A stretch of DNA of 22,181 nucleotides from positions 1-22,181 of IMG/VR virus record IMGVR_UViG_3300006928_000105, one strand, 5' to 3'. Positions 9,288 to 16,871 of this stretch are shown here, piece by piece. Within the stretch, counting starts at the first letter, position 1; every line of letters starts with the position of its first letter. The position numbers and the translations under genes are program-made. The notes under the pieces are model-generated. The model was given only the letters and a program-made list of their open reading frames with translations. It was not told the origin of the DNA and made no database searches. The DNA comes from a virus.

Positions 9288-10922
9288 ATGGCTCTCAAGT
9301 TTTTTGACAGAACCAAACAAGATGCCACAACTTCTGGAACTGGCACTTTTACCCTTTCTGGTACAGCGGCTGATGGTGGTTTTAGAACATTTGCCTCTGT
9401 CCATGCTAGTGGTGATGAAGTATTTTACTGTGCTGTTGACAGCTCTAGTGGTAATTTTGAAGTTGGCCAAGGAACTCTTACATCCGGAGGTAACTGGACT
9501 TTAACTCGTGACATAGTTAAAAGCTCAACCAACTCAAATAACAAAGTTAATTTTGCCTCACCACCAGAAATATTCTCCACATATCCAGCTGAAAACGCTG
9601 CTTTTTCTGATACAACCCTTGCAAGTAATGTTGTTGAAACAGACGCTGTTTTTGACGAAACATTGACAGCTAACAAAGCTCTTAGTGGTCAATTTAAGGG
9701 TACTCTTCAATTTAACAAAGCCTTCTTTACTATTTCTGATTATACAGTTGCATCAGGTCAAACATTAACTGTTACTGATAGTGCTGATTTATATGCTGTT
9801 GATATAGCCTCTGGAACAGTTATGGATAGAACAGCAGATTTTACCGATGATGTAACTATTTCTTCCGATACTATGTTTTCACCAGGTATTAATGCTTACG
9901 CTACTGTTACAATAGCAAATAACGTAAAAGCCACTGTTTCTCCTGTAGGAACAACTTTTGTAAATAATGGTGCAGGTATAACAACAGGTGGCCCAATATC
10001 ATGGAAACTACCAACATCAGATGGAGCTGCTAACACAGAAATTGTTACAGATGGTAAAGGTGGTTTTGCTCTTAAAGGTGCAGCAGCAACAAGTTCAGAT
10101 GGCACTGTTATTTTAAGTCCAACTACCGAAATTCTTATTTCTACATTTGATTTCAATTCTTACACACCTTCTGCTCCAATAGAAAGTTTAGAAGTTTTGG
10201 TTCCTAATACTGTTGCAGCTAGTGCTGATCTTATAGAAAGTTTTAGAATAAAGTGGGTAGGTGTTAATCTTGGAGGAGCAGCTAATTCTACTAATTATCA
10301 GGAGAGTTTAATACATTCTCTTGCTCCTATAACTTCTGCTGGTGGCGATGTAATATTCGATAACACCTCTGCTGAGTGGCAAAGTTATGGAATTACCAAA
10401 AACAATAGCACTAGTTGGTCAAGCGCTCAAGGTTTTACAAGCGGTAAAGGCAGAACATGGAGTGTTTCAAATGGTAGTTACGAATCTAATACCTATGGCT
10501 ATGCTTTATGGGGTTATCAAGGTGCGCCTCAAATGTCTTCAAGAGGTAGTTCTAGTTACTATGGTCCTACTATCGAGAACAATCCTTTTACAAGTGATGA
10601 AAATACTTACATGAGAACTAATATAACTGGTGAAATTTATGTAATGAACAATAAATACAGTTTCGACACCCAACAAACTTTTCAATGGAATGGATATAGT
10701 GGCACTTATAGTTTTAATCAATATAATTATATGGGCGGTGGTAGACCTTCACAAAATCAAAACAATACTGTTTATCATTCACAAACTGGTCGAGCAAAAG
10801 GTATGAGGATGTATTTTTTGCCATATGATAAAAATAGACAAGGTAGTTGGGGTCTTGTTTCTGGAAGAATAGAAGTTTTTGCTACTTTGAAACAGGATGC
10901 TGCACAAATAACAGTAGCATGA
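9288..10922 (+). CDS. Tail fibre / receptor-binding protein, 544 aa
   Basis: Residues 1-105 (FFDRTKQDATTSGTGTFTLSG...GGFRTFASV...VNFASPPEIFSTYPA) match the N-terminal anchor domain that I know from many phage fibre proteins (xVxETTTTxGTGxxTLxG...YPA). Residues 120-235 are a beta-strand shaft. Residues 239-262 carry the linker motif WKLPTSDG...TDGKGGFAL, the same element seen in four other proteins of this island. Residues 265-544 are a Tyr/Asn/Ser/Gly-rich C-terminal domain ending SGRIEVFATLK, likely a sugar-binding beta-sandwich receptor-binding tip. It is expected to trimerise. The gene has a strong AAAGGAAAGG ribosome binding site. Two consecutive stops (TGA TAA) end it. Confidence 0.8.
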   Translation: MALKFFDRTKQDATTSGTGTFTLSGTAADGGFRTFASVHASGDEVFYCAVDSSSGNFEVGQGTLTSGGNWTLTRDIVKSSTNSNNKVNFASPPEIFSTYPAENAAFSDTTLASNVVETDAVFDETLTANKALSGQFKGTLQFNKAFFTISDYTVASGQTLTVTDSADLYAVDIASGTVMDRTADFTDDVTISSDTMFSPGINAYATVTIANNVKATVSPVGTTFVNNGAGITTGGPISWKLPTSDGAANTEIVTDGKGGFALKGAAATSSDGTVILSPTTEILISTFDFNSYTPSAPIESLEVLVPNTVAASADLIESFRIKWVGVNLGGAANSTNYQESLIHSLAPITSAGGDVIFDNTSAEWQSYGITKNNSTSWSSAQGFTSGKGRTWSVSNGSYESNTYGYALWGYQGAPQMSSRGSSSYYGPTIENNPFTSDENTYMRTNITGEIYVMNNKYSFDTQQTFQWNGYSGTYSFNQYNYMGGGRPSQNQNNTVYHSQTGRAKGMRMYFLPYDKNRQGSWGLVSGRIEVFATLKQDAAQITVA

Positions 10923-10964
10923 TAATTTGCAATACAATAAAATATAGGTTAAAAAGGTAATATT

Positions 10965-11801
10965 ATGGCATCGTTAATAAAAACAAATAAAATAAGTACT
11001 CCAGGCGGTCAGGATTTTACACTGCCTACAACTTATCCTAGTGCTACAGTTGATTTAACATCAACAAGTGGTGGTCAATTAGGTTATGGAACGGCTAATC
11101 CTATTGTTCAAAATATGTCTACATCAACAGGTAAAATTGCAGAACGTTTTTGTGATAAAATAAGAGTAAATAATGCATCTAGCACTGTTGCAAATGCAAC
11201 ATTAAGTGCTTTACCATCTGATGTAACAGACGTATCAAGCATCGTTAGAACTCAAGTAGATTTTGCTGGAGTATGTTTTGTGGGAACAGCTTTACCACAT
11301 GTTCAACTTTTAGATGCTAGTAATAATAATGTTATAAATTCTAATTTATATGAGCAATACAGGTACTCTGAATCTTACTCCGGTGGTAGTGGAACTACAA
11401 ATAATAATGTTGAGACTACTGCCTCAAATAATGGGTTCAAATTAAATTATACTCAGACTGTAAAAGGAGCTGCTAAAAGTGGAGAAATTTTTACAAAAAC
11501 TACCAATGAAGATAACTTAGCTTTAATGTGCGGATATGTTATTGTAAATCAATATAATTTATCAGATGGAGCTGGAATAACTAACAGCGGCATTTTAATA
11601 GAAAGCAATATTAATTATAATTATAATGGAACTTACACTGATTCAGGCAGAGGTTGTATGGTTCATAAATGGGCTAGATATTTTAATACAAGTGGAACTA
11701 CTATTAATCCATATACACAAGTTAAAATTTATGACACTAATGGAAACAACATTAATGAAGGAATATTTGTTTCATACTCTCATATTAACGTAAATAAATA
11801 A
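10965..11801 (+). CDS. Short fibre-tip-like protein 1 of a tandem trio, 278 aa
   Basis: The N-terminal 40 residues (IKTNKISTPGGQDFTLPTTYPSATVDLTSTSGGQLGYG) match those of the two following genes and the internal linker of the longer fibres: a TNKI element, LPTT at 20-23 and a Gly-rich turn at 35-38. The remainder (about residues 50-278) is a Ser/Thr/Asn/Tyr-rich beta protein with hydrophobic strands (VRTQVDFAGVCFVGTALPHVQLLD, DNLALMCGYVIVNQYNL) and a C-terminal VKIYDTNGNNINEGIFVSYSHINV. This fits a phage receptor-binding or fibre-tip domain. The N-terminal element is presumably an attachment module. Its C-terminal part shares little visible identity with its neighbours, suggesting divergence or domain swapping after duplication. 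Confidence 0.68.
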   Translation: MASLIKTNKISTPGGQDFTLPTTYPSATVDLTSTSGGQLGYGTANPIVQNMSTSTGKIAERFCDKIRVNNASSTVANATLSALPSDVTDVSSIVRTQVDFAGVCFVGTALPHVQLLDASNNNVINSNLYEQYRYSESYSGGSGTTNNNVETTASNNGFKLNYTQTVKGAAKSGEIFTKTTNEDNLALMCGYVIVNQYNLSDGAGITNSGILIESNINYNYNGTYTDSGRGCMVHKWARYFNTSGTTINPYTQVKIYDTNGNNINEGIFVSYSHINVNK

Positions 11802-11810
11802 GGAATAAAA

Positions 11811-12674
11811 ATGACAGTTAGAACAGAAAAAATACAATCATTAACAGGATCAGCTCCTTTAACTTTGCCTAAAACTCTTCCCTCTTCAAAAACAAATTTA
11901 AAAGTAGATTCTTCAGGTAATCTGACCACTAGTTCAGTTTCTCCTACTTTTTCATCTTTAGGTAAAGCTGGTGAAACAGGATGGGTTCTTTTAGGTAGTA
12001 CACAAACAAATGATTTTAGTAATGGATGTGAAGTAAGTATTGAAGGAAGTGGATATAGTGGTTCAGATATATATATGTATAGAATAGAATTTGATATTGA
12101 AGGTAATAGATCACAAAATAGTGGTAATAATTTTATGATAGCTCCTTATGCTGGAACTACAAATATATCAAACGCTTATTTTAGCTATAATGGTTTTTAT
12201 AATAGAAATAATAGCACTGGTAATGGGGCTTATAATACTGGAGCGCAAACTGGTACATATAATGGATATGAAATGTATTTTGCTAGTAATTTTTCTGGAA
12301 ACTCAAATGGTAGTTATGATTATGAAAGTATGTTTGATCCAGCTGGAGGAAATGAAAATTATTCTTACAAGGGTGGTATGAGAGGTAATATAAGATATTA
12401 CAATGGTGCCGGAATGAGAGCTTTTCAAATAGATCCTGTAGGTTTATATTGCGATGAATGGAACTCCTCTTACTATAACAACAGTCAAGGATATTATTTT
12501 AAGCAAATTTTTAGAAAAGGACAAACTAAGTACAATAACGCAACAAATTCTTCATTTGCAGATAAATTTAGAATACATAATGCAAGTTATTCAGGTGGTA
12601 ATAACGGAGCAGGAAATTCCTCTTTTTTTCAAAGAGGCATGATGACTCTTTATGGAATACCAAAAACAGGTTAA
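11811..12674 (+). CDS. Short fibre-tip-like protein 2 of a tandem trio, 287 aa
   Basis: The N-terminus (TEKIQSLTGSAPLTLPKTLPSSKTNLKVDSSGNLTTS) carries the shared connector element: a basic start, LP at residues 19-20, PSS, then DSSGNL at 33-38. The body is unusually rich in Gly, Asn, Ser and Tyr (for example YNGFYNRNNSTGNGAYN and GGNENYSYKGGMRGNIRYYNG). It ends with FFQRGMMTLYGIPKTG, whose xxGxxTLYGI ending is one that I associate with C-terminal beta-sandwich domains of phage fibres. Tyr- and Asn-rich surfaces suit binding of host surface glycans. The AAGGAAT ribosome binding site overlaps the stop of the preceding gene. Role as a host-recognition tip is inferred. Confidence 0.7.
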   Translation: MTVRTEKIQSLTGSAPLTLPKTLPSSKTNLKVDSSGNLTTSSVSPTFSSLGKAGETGWVLLGSTQTNDFSNGCEVSIEGSGYSGSDIYMYRIEFDIEGNRSQNSGNNFMIAPYAGTTNISNAYFSYNGFYNRNNSTGNGAYNTGAQTGTYNGYEMYFASNFSGNSNGSYDYESMFDPAGGNENYSYKGGMRGNIRYYNGAGMRAFQIDPVGLYCDEWNSSYYNNSQGYYFKQIFRKGQTKYNNATNSSFADKFRIHNASYSGGNNGAGNSSFFQRGMMTLYGIPKTG

Positions 12675-12685
12675 GGAATAATAAT

Positions 12686-13588
12686 ATGTCAACATTAGCA
12701 ACAAATAAAATAGGAACATTAGCTGGTACAGCTGATATGTCTTTACCAACAACAAGACCTTCTTCAACAAAATCAGCTTTTTTAGATAGTGCTGGAAACT
12801 TAACATTTGAAGAAACGTCTATTCCAGTAGAATTTTTTGTAGCAGACGGGACAGCATTTGTTTCTTCTGTTCTAGTAGATACAGCTTACTTAACAAGTGC
12901 TGGTTACCCAGCAAGCGTTTTTACTAATGGTGGCGGTGTTTCATCCTTCATATATGGGGTTAGATTAGGTATGTGGAATTTATCAGACGCAATTAAAACA
13001 AATTATCTTTTTCAAAAAAATTTAAGATGGTTTGAGTTAAATGCTTGGGGTAATGGTAATGCTGATAATAGCTCATATTGGTGTCTAAATATATTAAATC
13101 CTAGTGGAGGCATGTTGTATACTCAAAACCAATCTATGGGGCAAAAACATTTTTCTTTAGACGGTAATACTAGTACTAGTCAGGGAGGAAATATGACCAC
13201 GCAAACATGGTACTCTGGAGCCGCAGGAACCAATCAATATGGAGGTATTTTGTCTTCTAGGTCACTTAATTCTGGAAGCACTGAGCCATCTCCTTGGAGT
13301 GTGAGAACAAGAATAAAAGCTGCTGTTAATTATGGTTTTAGAATAGATGCTGAAGGAACTATTAGTAATTCTAATTCTTATGGTCCTGACTATACCTACA
13401 AAACATGGTGTCCTAGAGTTGATCAAAATATAGATGATACAACTTTAACTAGAGGTGGTCCTTGGGGTGATTTTGGTGGTTTTTATTTTGGAACTAGTCA
13501 AGAGAATTCAGATTATGCACCAGCTGCACAATTTGGGTCTTTTGTTTTAAAAGCTCAAATAAAACCAACAGCAGTTGTTTTAACATAG
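12686..13588 (+). CDS. Short fibre-tip-like protein 3 of a tandem trio, 300 aa
   Basis: The N-terminal 40 residues (LATNKIGTLAGTADMSLPTTRPSSTKSAFLDSAGNLTF) again carry the shared element: TNKI at 6-9, LPTT at 20-23, PSS at 25-27 and DSAGNL at 34-39. It is closest to protein 1 at the start and to protein 2 at the DSxGNLT part. The body is a Gly/Ser/Trp/Tyr-rich beta protein (YGVRLGMWNLSDAIKTNYLF, WFELNAWGNG, GFRIDAEGTISN) ending GSFVLKAQIKPTAVVL. No signal peptide, membrane helix or enzymatic motif is visible. A ribosome binding site AAGGAATAA precedes ATG 12686. It lies directly upstream of the assembly-chaperone-like gene. Confidence 0.68.
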   Translation: MSTLATNKIGTLAGTADMSLPTTRPSSTKSAFLDSAGNLTFEETSIPVEFFVADGTAFVSSVLVDTAYLTSAGYPASVFTNGGGVSSFIYGVRLGMWNLSDAIKTNYLFQKNLRWFELNAWGNGNADNSSYWCLNILNPSGGMLYTQNQSMGQKHFSLDGNTSTSQGGNMTTQTWYSGAAGTNQYGGILSSRSLNSGSTEPSPWSVRTRIKAAVNYGFRIDAEGTISNSNSYGPDYTYKTWCPRVDQNIDDTTLTRGGPWGDFGGFYFGTSQENSDYAPAAQFGSFVLKAQIKPTAVVLT

Positions 13589-13599
13589 AGAGGATTAGG

Positions 13600-14019
13600 A
13601 TGGCTTTACCAACAAAAAAAACTTTAACTAGAGGAAAAGTAAGTGTAAGAAACGAAAACTTTGAAAGAGTTTTGGTTGATGAAAGTGATGAAGAATTAGC
13701 TCTTCGTCAAAGTTTGCATAATGCATATATAGAAAATTATGTTGAAAATACAATTAATAGTTTTAACACTATGATTGATGACGTTCATAAGTCTTTTGAT
13801 TGGACTCAGTTGGTTGACACCACTTTAACAGAAGACTCTCAAAAAAAATTTACAGATTATAGAGCTAATTTAAAAAAAATAGGAAAGAAATATTTTAATG
13901 CTAAAAACGAACCTTTAGATGTTAAAGATAATTTTTGGAATGAAGGTTTTCCTATGGGAACTCTTATTCCAGAACCACCAACCCCAGAATATAAACCAGA
14001 AGAAGAAGAAGAGGAGTAA
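13600..14019 (+). CDS. Probable tail-fibre assembly chaperone, 139 aa
   Basis: Residues 67-94 (DWTQLVDTTLTEDSQKKFTDYRANLKKI) carry the pattern DWTQLxDxxLxxxxKxxxxxYRxxLxxI, which is diagnostic in my experience of the phage tail assembly chaperone family (the small proteins encoded beside tail fibre genes). The N-terminal half is helical and charged (residues 25-65), and the protein ends in a Pro-rich acidic tail (EPPTPEYKPEEEEEE) that could be a flexible or binding segment. It directly follows the three fibre-tip genes and precedes two further fibre-type genes, exactly where such a chaperone is usually found. Chaperoning of fibre trimerisation is the likely role. Confidence 0.75.
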   Translation: MALPTKKTLTRGKVSVRNENFERVLVDESDEELALRQSLHNAYIENYVENTINSFNTMIDDVHKSFDWTQLVDTTLTEDSQKKFTDYRANLKKIGKKYFNAKNEPLDVKDNFWNEGFPMGTLIPEPPTPEYKPEEEEEE

Positions 14020-14064: not shown

Positions 14065-15426
14065 ATGTTTGGTTTTAGTTCATTTGCACAAGATACCTTT
14101 GCATCATCAGGGTCAGGTCCTGTTAGTGTTACCGTTGATGCGACTGGAGTTGTTGGCACACTTACATTAGGAAATGAAACAACATCATTTGACATGGTGT
14201 TTGATGTTACAGGATTTAATTTACAAACATCACTGGGAACTCCTCTTGTATTCGAGGGTACCACTGCAACTATTACACCTTTAAATGCCTTACAGTCATC
14301 TCTTGGAAACATTACTGTCTTCACAGGAATGTTTGTTAATGTAAACAATACAAATCTTTTAATGACAGCAGAACTTGGTAATGCTGAAGCCAATTTACCT
14401 GTTCTTATAAATGCTACGTCACCAGGTGCTTTAACAGCTAATTTAGGTCAAGAAACAGTTATTGCTGGTAGTGTTACAGCTAAACCAAGACAAGATGAAA
14501 CATTTAATGTAACCGTTGCAAATGGTGGTAGTGGTAATGTTTATTACATGAATTACTTTAAGCAGACTACCGTTGATAGTTTGCATCCTCCATTTACATA
14601 TAGATTTGATCAATCTGATTCTAGCAATGGTAATCATCCTTTAAGATTTTCTACAGTACCTGATGGTACACACGCAAGTAATGAAACATTTACCATTACC
14701 GTACAAAATGTTAATGGAGCAAATAAGTATTTTGTTAATGGCGTTCAACAACAAATGCCTATTGCCTTAAAAAAAGGCTCAACCTATAAATTTGATCAAT
14801 CGGACAATACTAACAGTAATCATCCATTAAGACTTTCTACAACAGATAATGGCACTTGGGCTGGCGGATCAGAATATACTGACGGAGTTACAGTAGTAGG
14901 AGTACCCGGTCAAACTGGTGCTTATACACAAATTGTTGTAGCTAATAACGCTCCGTCTCAACTTTATACTTATTGCACTAATCATAGTGGTATGGGCTTT
15001 GGTGTTCCAATTACAGAAGGTGTTGAGTATACAACAGGAGTTGTTAAAAACGGTGTGCCGGGAAATCCTGGTGCTTATGTAGAGATAACACTAGCAGATG
15101 ATACACCACAGCTGTATATATATTGTCAAAATCATAGTGGAATGGGCTTTAAGCTTGATCAAGATTATAATGCTGAAATTATTGGAACAACTCAATTAAA
15201 TAGTGTAATAATACAATCATCAGTATTTATTCAGGTTACAAATGCTGATTTAGATACATTTGCTGAACTAGCGGATGCATCAACGATAATAGTTTCTGGT
15301 TCGGCATTAGTAAGTCCAACAGGCGTGTCGGCTACAGGATTTATTTCTTCGAGTGACCCAGCTGTTAATGTTTGGGCCGTTATAAATGATTCACAAACGC
15401 CTGGATGGACGGAGATAGCAGCATAA
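14065..15426 (+). CDS. Virion protein with nested cupredoxin-like domains, 453 aa
   Basis: The start (MFGFSSFAQDTF) resembles phage structural proteins opening FGFSxFAxxxF. Residues 30-138 hold five degenerate repeats of about 23 residues, each marked by an LG pair (residues 35, 57, 80, 104, 127). Residues 143-362 hold two cupredoxin-like domains: the signature FDQSDxxNxNHPLRxST occurs at 181-197 and 243-259, and YxYCxNHSGMGF at 301-312 and 351-362. The order is first half, first half, second half, second half, so one domain appears inserted in the other. His191/His253 plus Cys304-His307-Met310 and Cys354-His357-Met360 are the expected copper ligands of such folds. The C-terminus ends VNVWAVINDSQTPGWTEIAA, a pattern typical of phage structural proteins. 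The role (adhesion, virion surface) is inferred. Confidence 0.78.
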   Translation: MFGFSSFAQDTFASSGSGPVSVTVDATGVVGTLTLGNETTSFDMVFDVTGFNLQTSLGTPLVFEGTTATITPLNALQSSLGNITVFTGMFVNVNNTNLLMTAELGNAEANLPVLINATSPGALTANLGQETVIAGSVTAKPRQDETFNVTVANGGSGNVYYMNYFKQTTVDSLHPPFTYRFDQSDSSNGNHPLRFSTVPDGTHASNETFTITVQNVNGANKYFVNGVQQQMPIALKKGSTYKFDQSDNTNSNHPLRLSTTDNGTWAGGSEYTDGVTVVGVPGQTGAYTQIVVANNAPSQLYTYCTNHSGMGFGVPITEGVEYTTGVVKNGVPGNPGAYVEITLADDTPQLYIYCQNHSGMGFKLDQDYNAEIIGTTQLNSVIIQSSVFIQVTNADLDTFAELADASTIIVSGSALVSPTGVSATGFISSSDPAVNVWAVINDSQTPGWTEIAA

Positions 15427-16871
15427 TGGCAAGTACATATTCAAATTCTTTACGATTAGAACTTATGGCAACCGGAGAACAAGCTGGTACTTGGGGTTCA
15501 ACTACTAATAGAAACTTAGGAACTTTGTTGGAACAAGCAATTTCTGGTGTAGAAACAATAACAATTACTGGAAATACAACTCTTTCAACTAATAACGGAC
15601 AAGTAGATCAATCAAGAAATGCAGTTTTAGAAGTTAATGGGTCAATAGGCTCTGCTGCTTCTATATTTATTCCTGCTCAAGAAAAAATATATATTGTTAA
15701 AAATTCTACAGTAGGTGGTCACGATATAAATGTACAGGTTGCTGGACCTACAGGTTCTGCTGTAGCTATTCCTAATGGAAAAACAGGTATTGTTTATAGT
15801 ACAGGGTCAAACGTTAATTTAGCTTCTAATTTTGCAGATACTTTTGATATGGGTAATATACGCATTACAGGAAATACAATTAGTTCTACTAATACAAATG
15901 GTAATATTGCTATTGAACCTAATGGTAATGGCACCGTAAATGTAAGTAAAAATTTAAACGCTGCAAGTAACTTTACAGTAACAGGAGTAACAACTCTTAA
16001 CGGAAACACAACAATTGGTGATAATACATCTGATATAACAACAATTAATAGTAACACTATAACTACCCCTAATGGTCTAAATTTTGACACAAACACTCTT
16101 GTTTTAAATCAAGCAAATAATCGTATAGGTATAGGCCAACAAAATCCTTCATCTTCACTACATGTTTCTGGAAGAACTATAACGGATGACTTAACTATTG
16201 GTGGTACTGGTGGTTATCAATTACCAAGTAGTTCTGGAACAACTAGTCAAATCTTACAAATGAACAGTTCTGGTAATATGCAATTTGTTGATATTGGTAG
16301 TATTGGTGCATGGTCTACTGTAGGAAAAGCTACTAGTGCTGGTGCAAACTCTATGACAGTTTTTAGTGCTACAAGTTATGATATTTATTGGGCTGTATTT
16401 AGACTTCTTTATGATACTTCTATCGCCACTGATTTTAGAGTTGGTTTAGTAGATTCTGGGGGAACAAGAGTTTCTGCTAGTAATATATTTAATAATAGTT
16501 ATATCTATCAAGATGTTTCCAGTGCTGGAACTGTTAGCTCTACAGCTGTTAAAGTTTCTGGTGTTGCTGATGCTATTATTGCCTCATCACCCGCTCCAAG
16601 TTCAAGCACAGAAGTTGTTGTCGAAGGTACAGTGTATTTAGTGCGTGCGCCAGGATATAGCACTGGTCAAAACTATTATGGAAATGCTCAAGCAACTTCT
16701 ACAAAAGACGGTGGTGCTTCTGGCAATATAGATCAAACAACTCAGAGTTATTTTAAAGAAGCATCTGCAAACTCTACTGCTGTTTTTGGTTTAATATTTA
16801 CACAACAAGGTGGTAATACTTTAAAATCAGGATCTCGTGTAGATGTTTATGGTGCATCTTTCCCATCATAA
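15426..16871 (+). CDS. Tail fibre protein, 481 aa
   Basis: I start at ATG 15426, which overlaps the preceding stop as TAATG; the ATG at 15405 would add seven residues inside the upstream gene. Residues 1-45 (MASTYSNSLRLELMATGEQAGTWGSTTNRNLGTLLEQAISG) are a classic phage fibre N-terminal domain (STYSxxLRLELxATGExxGTWGxxTNxNL). Residues 45-260 are an Asn/Thr/Gly-rich beta-helical-looking shaft. Residues 264-288 carry the linker YQLPSSSG...NSSGNMQFV shared with the other fibres here. Residues 293-481 form a C-terminal beta domain ending GSRVDVYGASFPS, similar in ending to jelly-roll fibre tips. It probably trimerises and mediates host contact, perhaps with the chaperone encoded at 13600. Confidence 0.8.
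   Translation: MASTYSNSLRLELMATGEQAGTWGSTTNRNLGTLLEQAISGVETITITGNTTLSTNNGQVDQSRNAVLEVNGSIGSAASIFIPAQEKIYIVKNSTVGGHDINVQVAGPTGSAVAIPNGKTGIVYSTGSNVNLASNFADTFDMGNIRITGNTISSTNTNGNIAIEPNGNGTVNVSKNLNAASNFTVTGVTTLNGNTTIGDNTSDITTINSNTITTPNGLNFDTNTLVLNQANNRIGIGQQNPSSSLHVSGRTITDDLTIGGTGGYQLPSSSGTTSQILQMNSSGNMQFVDIGSIGAWSTVGKATSAGANSMTVFSATSYDIYWAVFRLLYDTSIATDFRVGLVDSGGTRVSASNIFNNSYIYQDVSSAGTVSSTAVKVSGVADAIIASSPAPSSSTEVVVEGTVYLVRAPGYSTGQNYYGNAQATSTKDGGASGNIDQTTQSYFKEASANSTAVFGLIFTQQGGNTLKSGSRVDVYGASFPS

Follow-up and report, generated by a model that had tools for sequence, protein, structure and literature searches.

The gene at positions 14065-15426 of the window (the whole 22,181-nucleotide stretch of viral DNA analyzed here) appears to encode a tail-fiber-like protein in which one domain of predicted cupredoxin fold is inserted in another, with both domains carrying the residues expected of a type-1 copper center. 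The reading that we favor, to which we give a probability of about 0.65, is that of a tail-fiber-like component whose nested domains are of the type-1 copper type and act as a stabilizing or adhesion module. The coordinates of the features are given in Table 1.

Gene context and domain arrangement

The encoded protein matches PHROG 27200, 30742 and 693 over the domain, with E values of 9e-24 to 3e-29, and two of these three families are annotated as 'tail fiber protein'. The gene is flanked by a tail-fiber-like gene cluster and by a virion structural gene, so that homology and gene context both point to a tail-fiber or virion protein; the gene neighborhood and the annotation of the relatives suggest a tail-fiber-like component of the virion. 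The short N-terminal repeats likely form a beta-repeat shaft, and the C-terminal ending is common among related marine phage proteins. The stop codon overlaps a possible next start as TAATG (15424-15428), and translational coupling is likely.

The window is related to the 60-kb pelagiphages, its major capsid protein being 67% identical to that of HTVC023P. In the tail-fiber-like gene island at 9288-14016, three genes begin alike, with ...TNKI...LPTT.PS...; identity to the relative L006 is 34-66% over the island and 96-98% for the flanking genes. This variability fits a host-contact region, and the island is probably a hypervariable one. Elsewhere in the window, three small Lys/Arg-rich proteins (98, 100 and 80 residues) are encoded in a row at 6-847, preceding the capsid genes; the protein of 1164-1841, within the virion gene region, matches PHROG 3704, annotated as ferredoxin (E 1e-32); and 2080-2541 encodes a co-chaperonin GroES (PHROG 3188, E 9e-19), whose gene precedes the capsid gene also in HTVC023P and 023Pt_psg01.

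It is clear that the domain occurs in the protein as a half, a whole and a half. The A3 profile of the domain, which draws on 58 diverse relatives and excludes known ligand-less members, matches the window in three pieces, at 14509-14712 (model positions 2-68, E 3e-19), 14692-15006 (1-104, E 2e-46) and 15016-15156 (57-104, E 9e-19), values which exclude chance. This corresponds to the order described in the earlier note, in which two first-half motifs are followed by two second-half motifs; the span of 14491-15150 given there was correct within a few residues, and every residue that it named as a ligand is found exactly in the translation. The boundaries in Table 1 were taken from the profile search and from pairwise codon alignment because MAFFT often mis-registered the nested rows.

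Table 1. Features of the nested-domain gene in the window
Feature	Residues	Position	Strand	Basis
CDS, tail-fiber-like virion protein carrying the nested domains	1-453	14065..15426	+	PHROG matches, gene context
N-terminal part, short repeats of the type TGVxxTxxLGxxT	1-141	14065..14487	+	sequence
Outer cupredoxin-like domain, first half (strands 1-4)	146-207	14500..14685	+	profile, model
Outer-domain ligand	His191	14635-14637	+	translation
Cassette shared with the nested protein of L003	181-316	14605..15012	+	nucleotide identity
Inner complete cupredoxin-like domain	208-316	14686..15012	+	profile, model
Inner-domain ligands	His253, Cys304, His307, Met310	14821-14823, 14974-14976, 14983-14985, 14992-14994	+	translation
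Outer cupredoxin-like domain, second half (strands 5-8)	320-362	15022..15150	+	profile, model
Outer-domain ligands	Cys354, His357, Met360	15124-15126, 15133-15135, 15142-15144	+	translation
C-terminal part, ending VNVWAVINDSQTPGWTEIAA	363-453	15151..15423	+	sequence, relatives

The same three-piece pattern recurs in the relatives L001, L002 and L003. The nested form is rare, being found in 3 of 335 distinct proteins and in two lineages, with the domain single in 312 and in tandem in 19. Given that metagenomic contigs can be chimeric, such rarity would suit an artefact of assembly in which two related genes were joined. This explanation is hardly credible, because the same architecture and the same left junction are found in contigs from different metagenomes (window/L001, L002 and L003) and the reading frame is open throughout the nested gene. 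One further candidate for nesting, L105, with a half match followed by a full one, was rejected, as the half is a degenerate separate stretch that is without the His and has no second half. In another relative, L090, the domain at residues 38-115 is interrupted by a GWGRSTWSSGEW-type stretch in the loop behind the GTPG motif, and thus this loop also tolerates inserts.

Predicted fold, family membership and distribution

The AlphaFold2 model of the inner domain, obtained with the A3 alignment, has a pLDDT of 98.2 and a pTM of 0.89 and consists of eight strands and a short helix. Its best PDB matches in Foldseek are CotA laccase, the three-domain copper nitrite reductase and CueO (probability 0.94-1.00, TM to query 0.50-0.57, E 0.013-0.09), with amicyanin lower in the list. 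The nested region was modeled with a pLDDT of 85.6 and a strand pattern of 4 + 8 + 4, from an input alignment whose depth is high for the inner domain and low (three rows) for the outer one. This model is weakest at the left junction, at about residues 202-204, and in Foldseek it matches laccases, nitrite reductase and rusticyanin best, with immunoglobulin folds interspersed among them. The predicted model has the eight strands expected of the Greek key of cupredoxins, the strand topology being inferred from the fold match. The structural proposal of the earlier note, one beta-sandwich inserted in a loop of another, is supported by these predictions: the inner domain is modeled with confidence and finds cupredoxins, and the outer strands lie as 4 + 4 around the 8 inner ones, while against the fold reading stand the single-domain Foldseek E values, which are never below 0.01, and the pTM of 0.59 for the nested model. 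A cupredoxin fold is predicted for both domains, and the outer one would fold from two separated halves around the inner one.

Profile comparisons point to the same family. The five best matches of the A3 profile among PDB sequences are cyanobacterial-type plastocyanins (E 0.015-0.05) with the four ligands aligned; these matches were obtained from profiles only, and a phmmer search of the PDB with the single window protein gave none. The domain also matches four marine bacterial proteins at E values of 1e-10 to 1e-14 (for a search space of one), all four of which exceed the Pfam Copper-bind cut-off; hhalign places the A3 domain at 97.8% against these four and at 84% against two plastocyanin-like proteins. 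In the window protein itself the domain is unannotated by Pfam and NCBIfam, no cupredoxin model of either collection reaching its cut-off there and Copper-bind (PF00127) giving no match at E 1, although the latter matches 10 of the 58 relatives (best E 2e-5). The Pfam scan of the whole window protein returned sub-threshold matches only, to CBM_4_9 and others. A carbohydrate-binding identity, for which several members show weak CBM_4_9 matches, was set aside given that the fold search and the ligands favor a cupredoxin. The Cys-x2-His-x2-Met spacing, which the earlier note had regarded as shorter than the plastocyanin type, does not set the protein apart: it is also present in three of the four bacterial proteins that pass the Copper-bind cut-off and is thus ordinary for the group. 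Amicyanin has this spacing as well.

The domain was found in 104 of 50,697 GenBank phage records, all of them marine as far as they are named (phages of Synechococcus, Prochlorococcus, Pelagibacter and Methylophilales, and unassigned marine phages), and in none of the plasmid records. Among the matches listed, the annotations are tail fiber, virion or structural protein, baseplate wedge and hypothetical protein, and viral structure models contain the same domain in many cyanophage proteins. Marine bacterial genomes also carry it, including within very long proteins of Flavobacteria, and some of these contigs may be phage-derived. Five of the bacterial proteins begin with a lipobox-like sequence (ACGGGGG or SCGGGGG); their domains have all the ligands, and they are probable surface lipoproteins.

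Insertion and recombination of the inner domain

The earlier note had raised the question of whether homologues lack the inner domain, and such homologues were indeed found. A single contiguous domain lies at the syntenic place in L004, L005, L006, L007/L008 and L167-L177, with adjoining genes that are up to 96-98% identical to those of the window in L006 and about 95% identical in L004. The inner copy is therefore a real insertion. At the break site the uninterrupted relatives read ...DGTHGGGTEYTTGV..., and the window reads ...DGTHASNE, then the inner domain, then VEYTTGV...; in the predicted model this site lies between outer strands 4 and 5.

The outer domain of the window is 80-86% identical to the single domains of these relatives and 53% identical to its own inner domain, which in turn is 75-77% identical to the domains of three other relatives (L093, L153 and L161) and about 83% identical to the inner domain of L003. 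In the tree, a branch with 100/100 support unites the outer domain with its single-domain relatives, and the inner domain falls on the other side of it. These identities and the tree indicate that the inner domain did not arise as a copy of its host domain; as judged from the sequences compared, it came from another lineage of marine phages.

The nucleotide identity between the window and L003, whose outer background differs, rises from about 47-53% over residues 151-180 to 82% over 181-195 and 98% over 196-210, the last of which span the left junction; it then remains at 78-96% up to residue 315 and falls to 58% beyond. In the comparison with L002, identity is 97-100% in the flanks and drops to 88% in the inner domain, which indicates that this domain has been exchanged or diversified again. 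No match covering 80% of the left junction was found in the GenBank phages. Exchange of the cassette between phages is apparent in these identity profiles, and their simplest reading is that the nested form would have arisen once and the cassette would then have been passed on by recombination, the crossovers lying in the conserved motif FDQSDSSN...HPLRFST and close to the right junction.

Putative copper sites and comparison with known systems

Both window domains have the full His/Cys/His/Met set of a type-1 site, aligned to the ligands of plastocyanin. The earlier note had left it to the homologues to tell whether the ligands are invariant; they nearly are, with all four present in 325 of 332 distinct domains, and where they are lost they are lost together. 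The relatives were fetched by motif, and to lessen this bias subsets without one of the search motifs were used: domains with the first motif and without the second keep the Cys, His and Met in 37 of 38 cases, and those with the second and without the first keep the first His in all 116. In the A3 alignment, which excludes the known ligand-less members, no column other than those of the four ligands is invariant. At least two ligands are missing in seven of the 332 domains and three or four in six, in about three lineages, compared with 0.007 such domains expected under independent loss; these six retain the remaining conserved core residues wholly or for the most part. Joint loss of the ligands with the fold core kept is predicted by a metal site and not by a plain structural core. 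Three two-domain proteins (L089, L272 and L276), in which one copy lost all four ligands and the second keeps them, are natural controls for a metal-binding test.

This pattern bears directly on the alternative that the beta-sandwich is a structural or adhesive module only, with the four conserved residues in its core and no metal in the virion. Such a module would suit tail fibers, in which beta-sandwich decorations are abundant, and the PHROG and GenBank annotations of the relatives as tail fiber or structural proteins; nonetheless, it is a minor contender, since the ligand columns are the most conserved ones and their joint loss left the other core residues in place, the ligand-less copies suggesting that the fold does not depend on the ligands. 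Electron transfer, in which redox-active blue copper on the virion would act on the redox chains or oxidative defenses of the host, has in its favor that most characterized single-domain cupredoxins with the His/Cys/His/Met set carry electrons or belong to copper enzymes. It is very unlikely here, given that the protein has no redox partner or enzyme domain and that the domains occur in fiber-like proteins of phages and, in bacteria, in apparent lipoproteins and in very long proteins. Somewhat less unlikely, though still improbable, is a bound metal other than copper, zinc for instance, stabilizing the tail as iron does in T4 gp37: metal-stabilized tail tips are known and HxH iron motifs of marine phages have been discussed (PMC11705849), but the set and order of the ligands are those of type-1 copper and align with plastocyanin and with Copper-bind proteins.

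The nested copper-type reading leads to the following mechanism. A domain of predicted cupredoxin fold lies among the short beta repeats of a tail-fiber-like protein, and a second, complete one, derived from another lineage of marine phages, has entered its strand 4-5 loop. Each domain would most likely bind one copper ion, and the metal would lock and present the exposed loop face for host-surface contact or particle stability, not for electron transfer. The insertion doubles the copper-type faces per chain, presumably to some benefit, and the cassette is swapped between phages by recombination at conserved motifs. Copper binding by the domains is quite probable, and stabilizing or presenting the contact face of the tail fiber is their likely role, held with a little less confidence. 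Docking on a copper-related surface protein of the host is speculative. The general picture would be a copper analogue of the proposed iron-bearing phage tails, with type-1 copper domains on the tail fibers of marine phages of cyanobacteria, SAR11 and Methylophilales and, in some, a domain that has entered a relative of itself and moves as a recombining cassette, possibly for docking on copper-handling host surface proteins; it is tentative and more doubtful than the reading for this protein.

If copper is bound, the virus particles, which abound in the sea, would hold protein-bound copper on the structures by which they recognize the host, which would bear on adsorption, on marine copper chemistry and on copper uptake by the host. 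Copper aside, the protein is a clean natural case of one domain lodged within a loop of a related domain, and the uninterrupted relatives at the locus, together with the trace of recombination, make it useful for the origin of nested architectures. It also brings to notice a domain that lacks annotation and is widespread in marine phages and marine bacteria. In the open-access literature, no description was found of a cupredoxin nested in a cupredoxin, nor of a cupredoxin or plastocyanin domain in phage tail proteins, which for the latter is weak evidence of absence; the main text of a cyanophage virion proteomics paper makes no mention of a possible relative.

There is precedent for cupredoxins, for inserted domains and for metal on phage tails, each taken alone. 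With the plastocyanin/azurin family (PF00127; plastocyanin, amicyanin, pseudoazurin) the window protein has in common the predicted fold class and the aligned His...Cys-x2-His...Met ligands, and it differs in lying below the Pfam cut-off, in being a larger fiber-like chain and no free carrier, and in having one domain split. Multicopper oxidases, small laccases and the three-domain nitrite reductase, which provide the top Foldseek matches, likewise have several cupredoxin domains per chain. Their domains are in tandem, with further copper centers shared between them, whereas those of the window are nested, the His-x-His motif is absent from the translated sequence and a second copper type is not evident. 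Marine phage tail-fiber proteins (PHROG 27200, 30742 and 693; S-TIM5, HTVC028P and P-HM1 among others) contain the homologous domain with the same ligands, in their case single or in tandem. Finally, iron-binding HxH motifs occur in T4 gp37 and in marine phage tail fibers (PMC11705849); a metal on the tail fiber, putatively copper here, would be common to both, and the metal, the fold and the ligand set differ.
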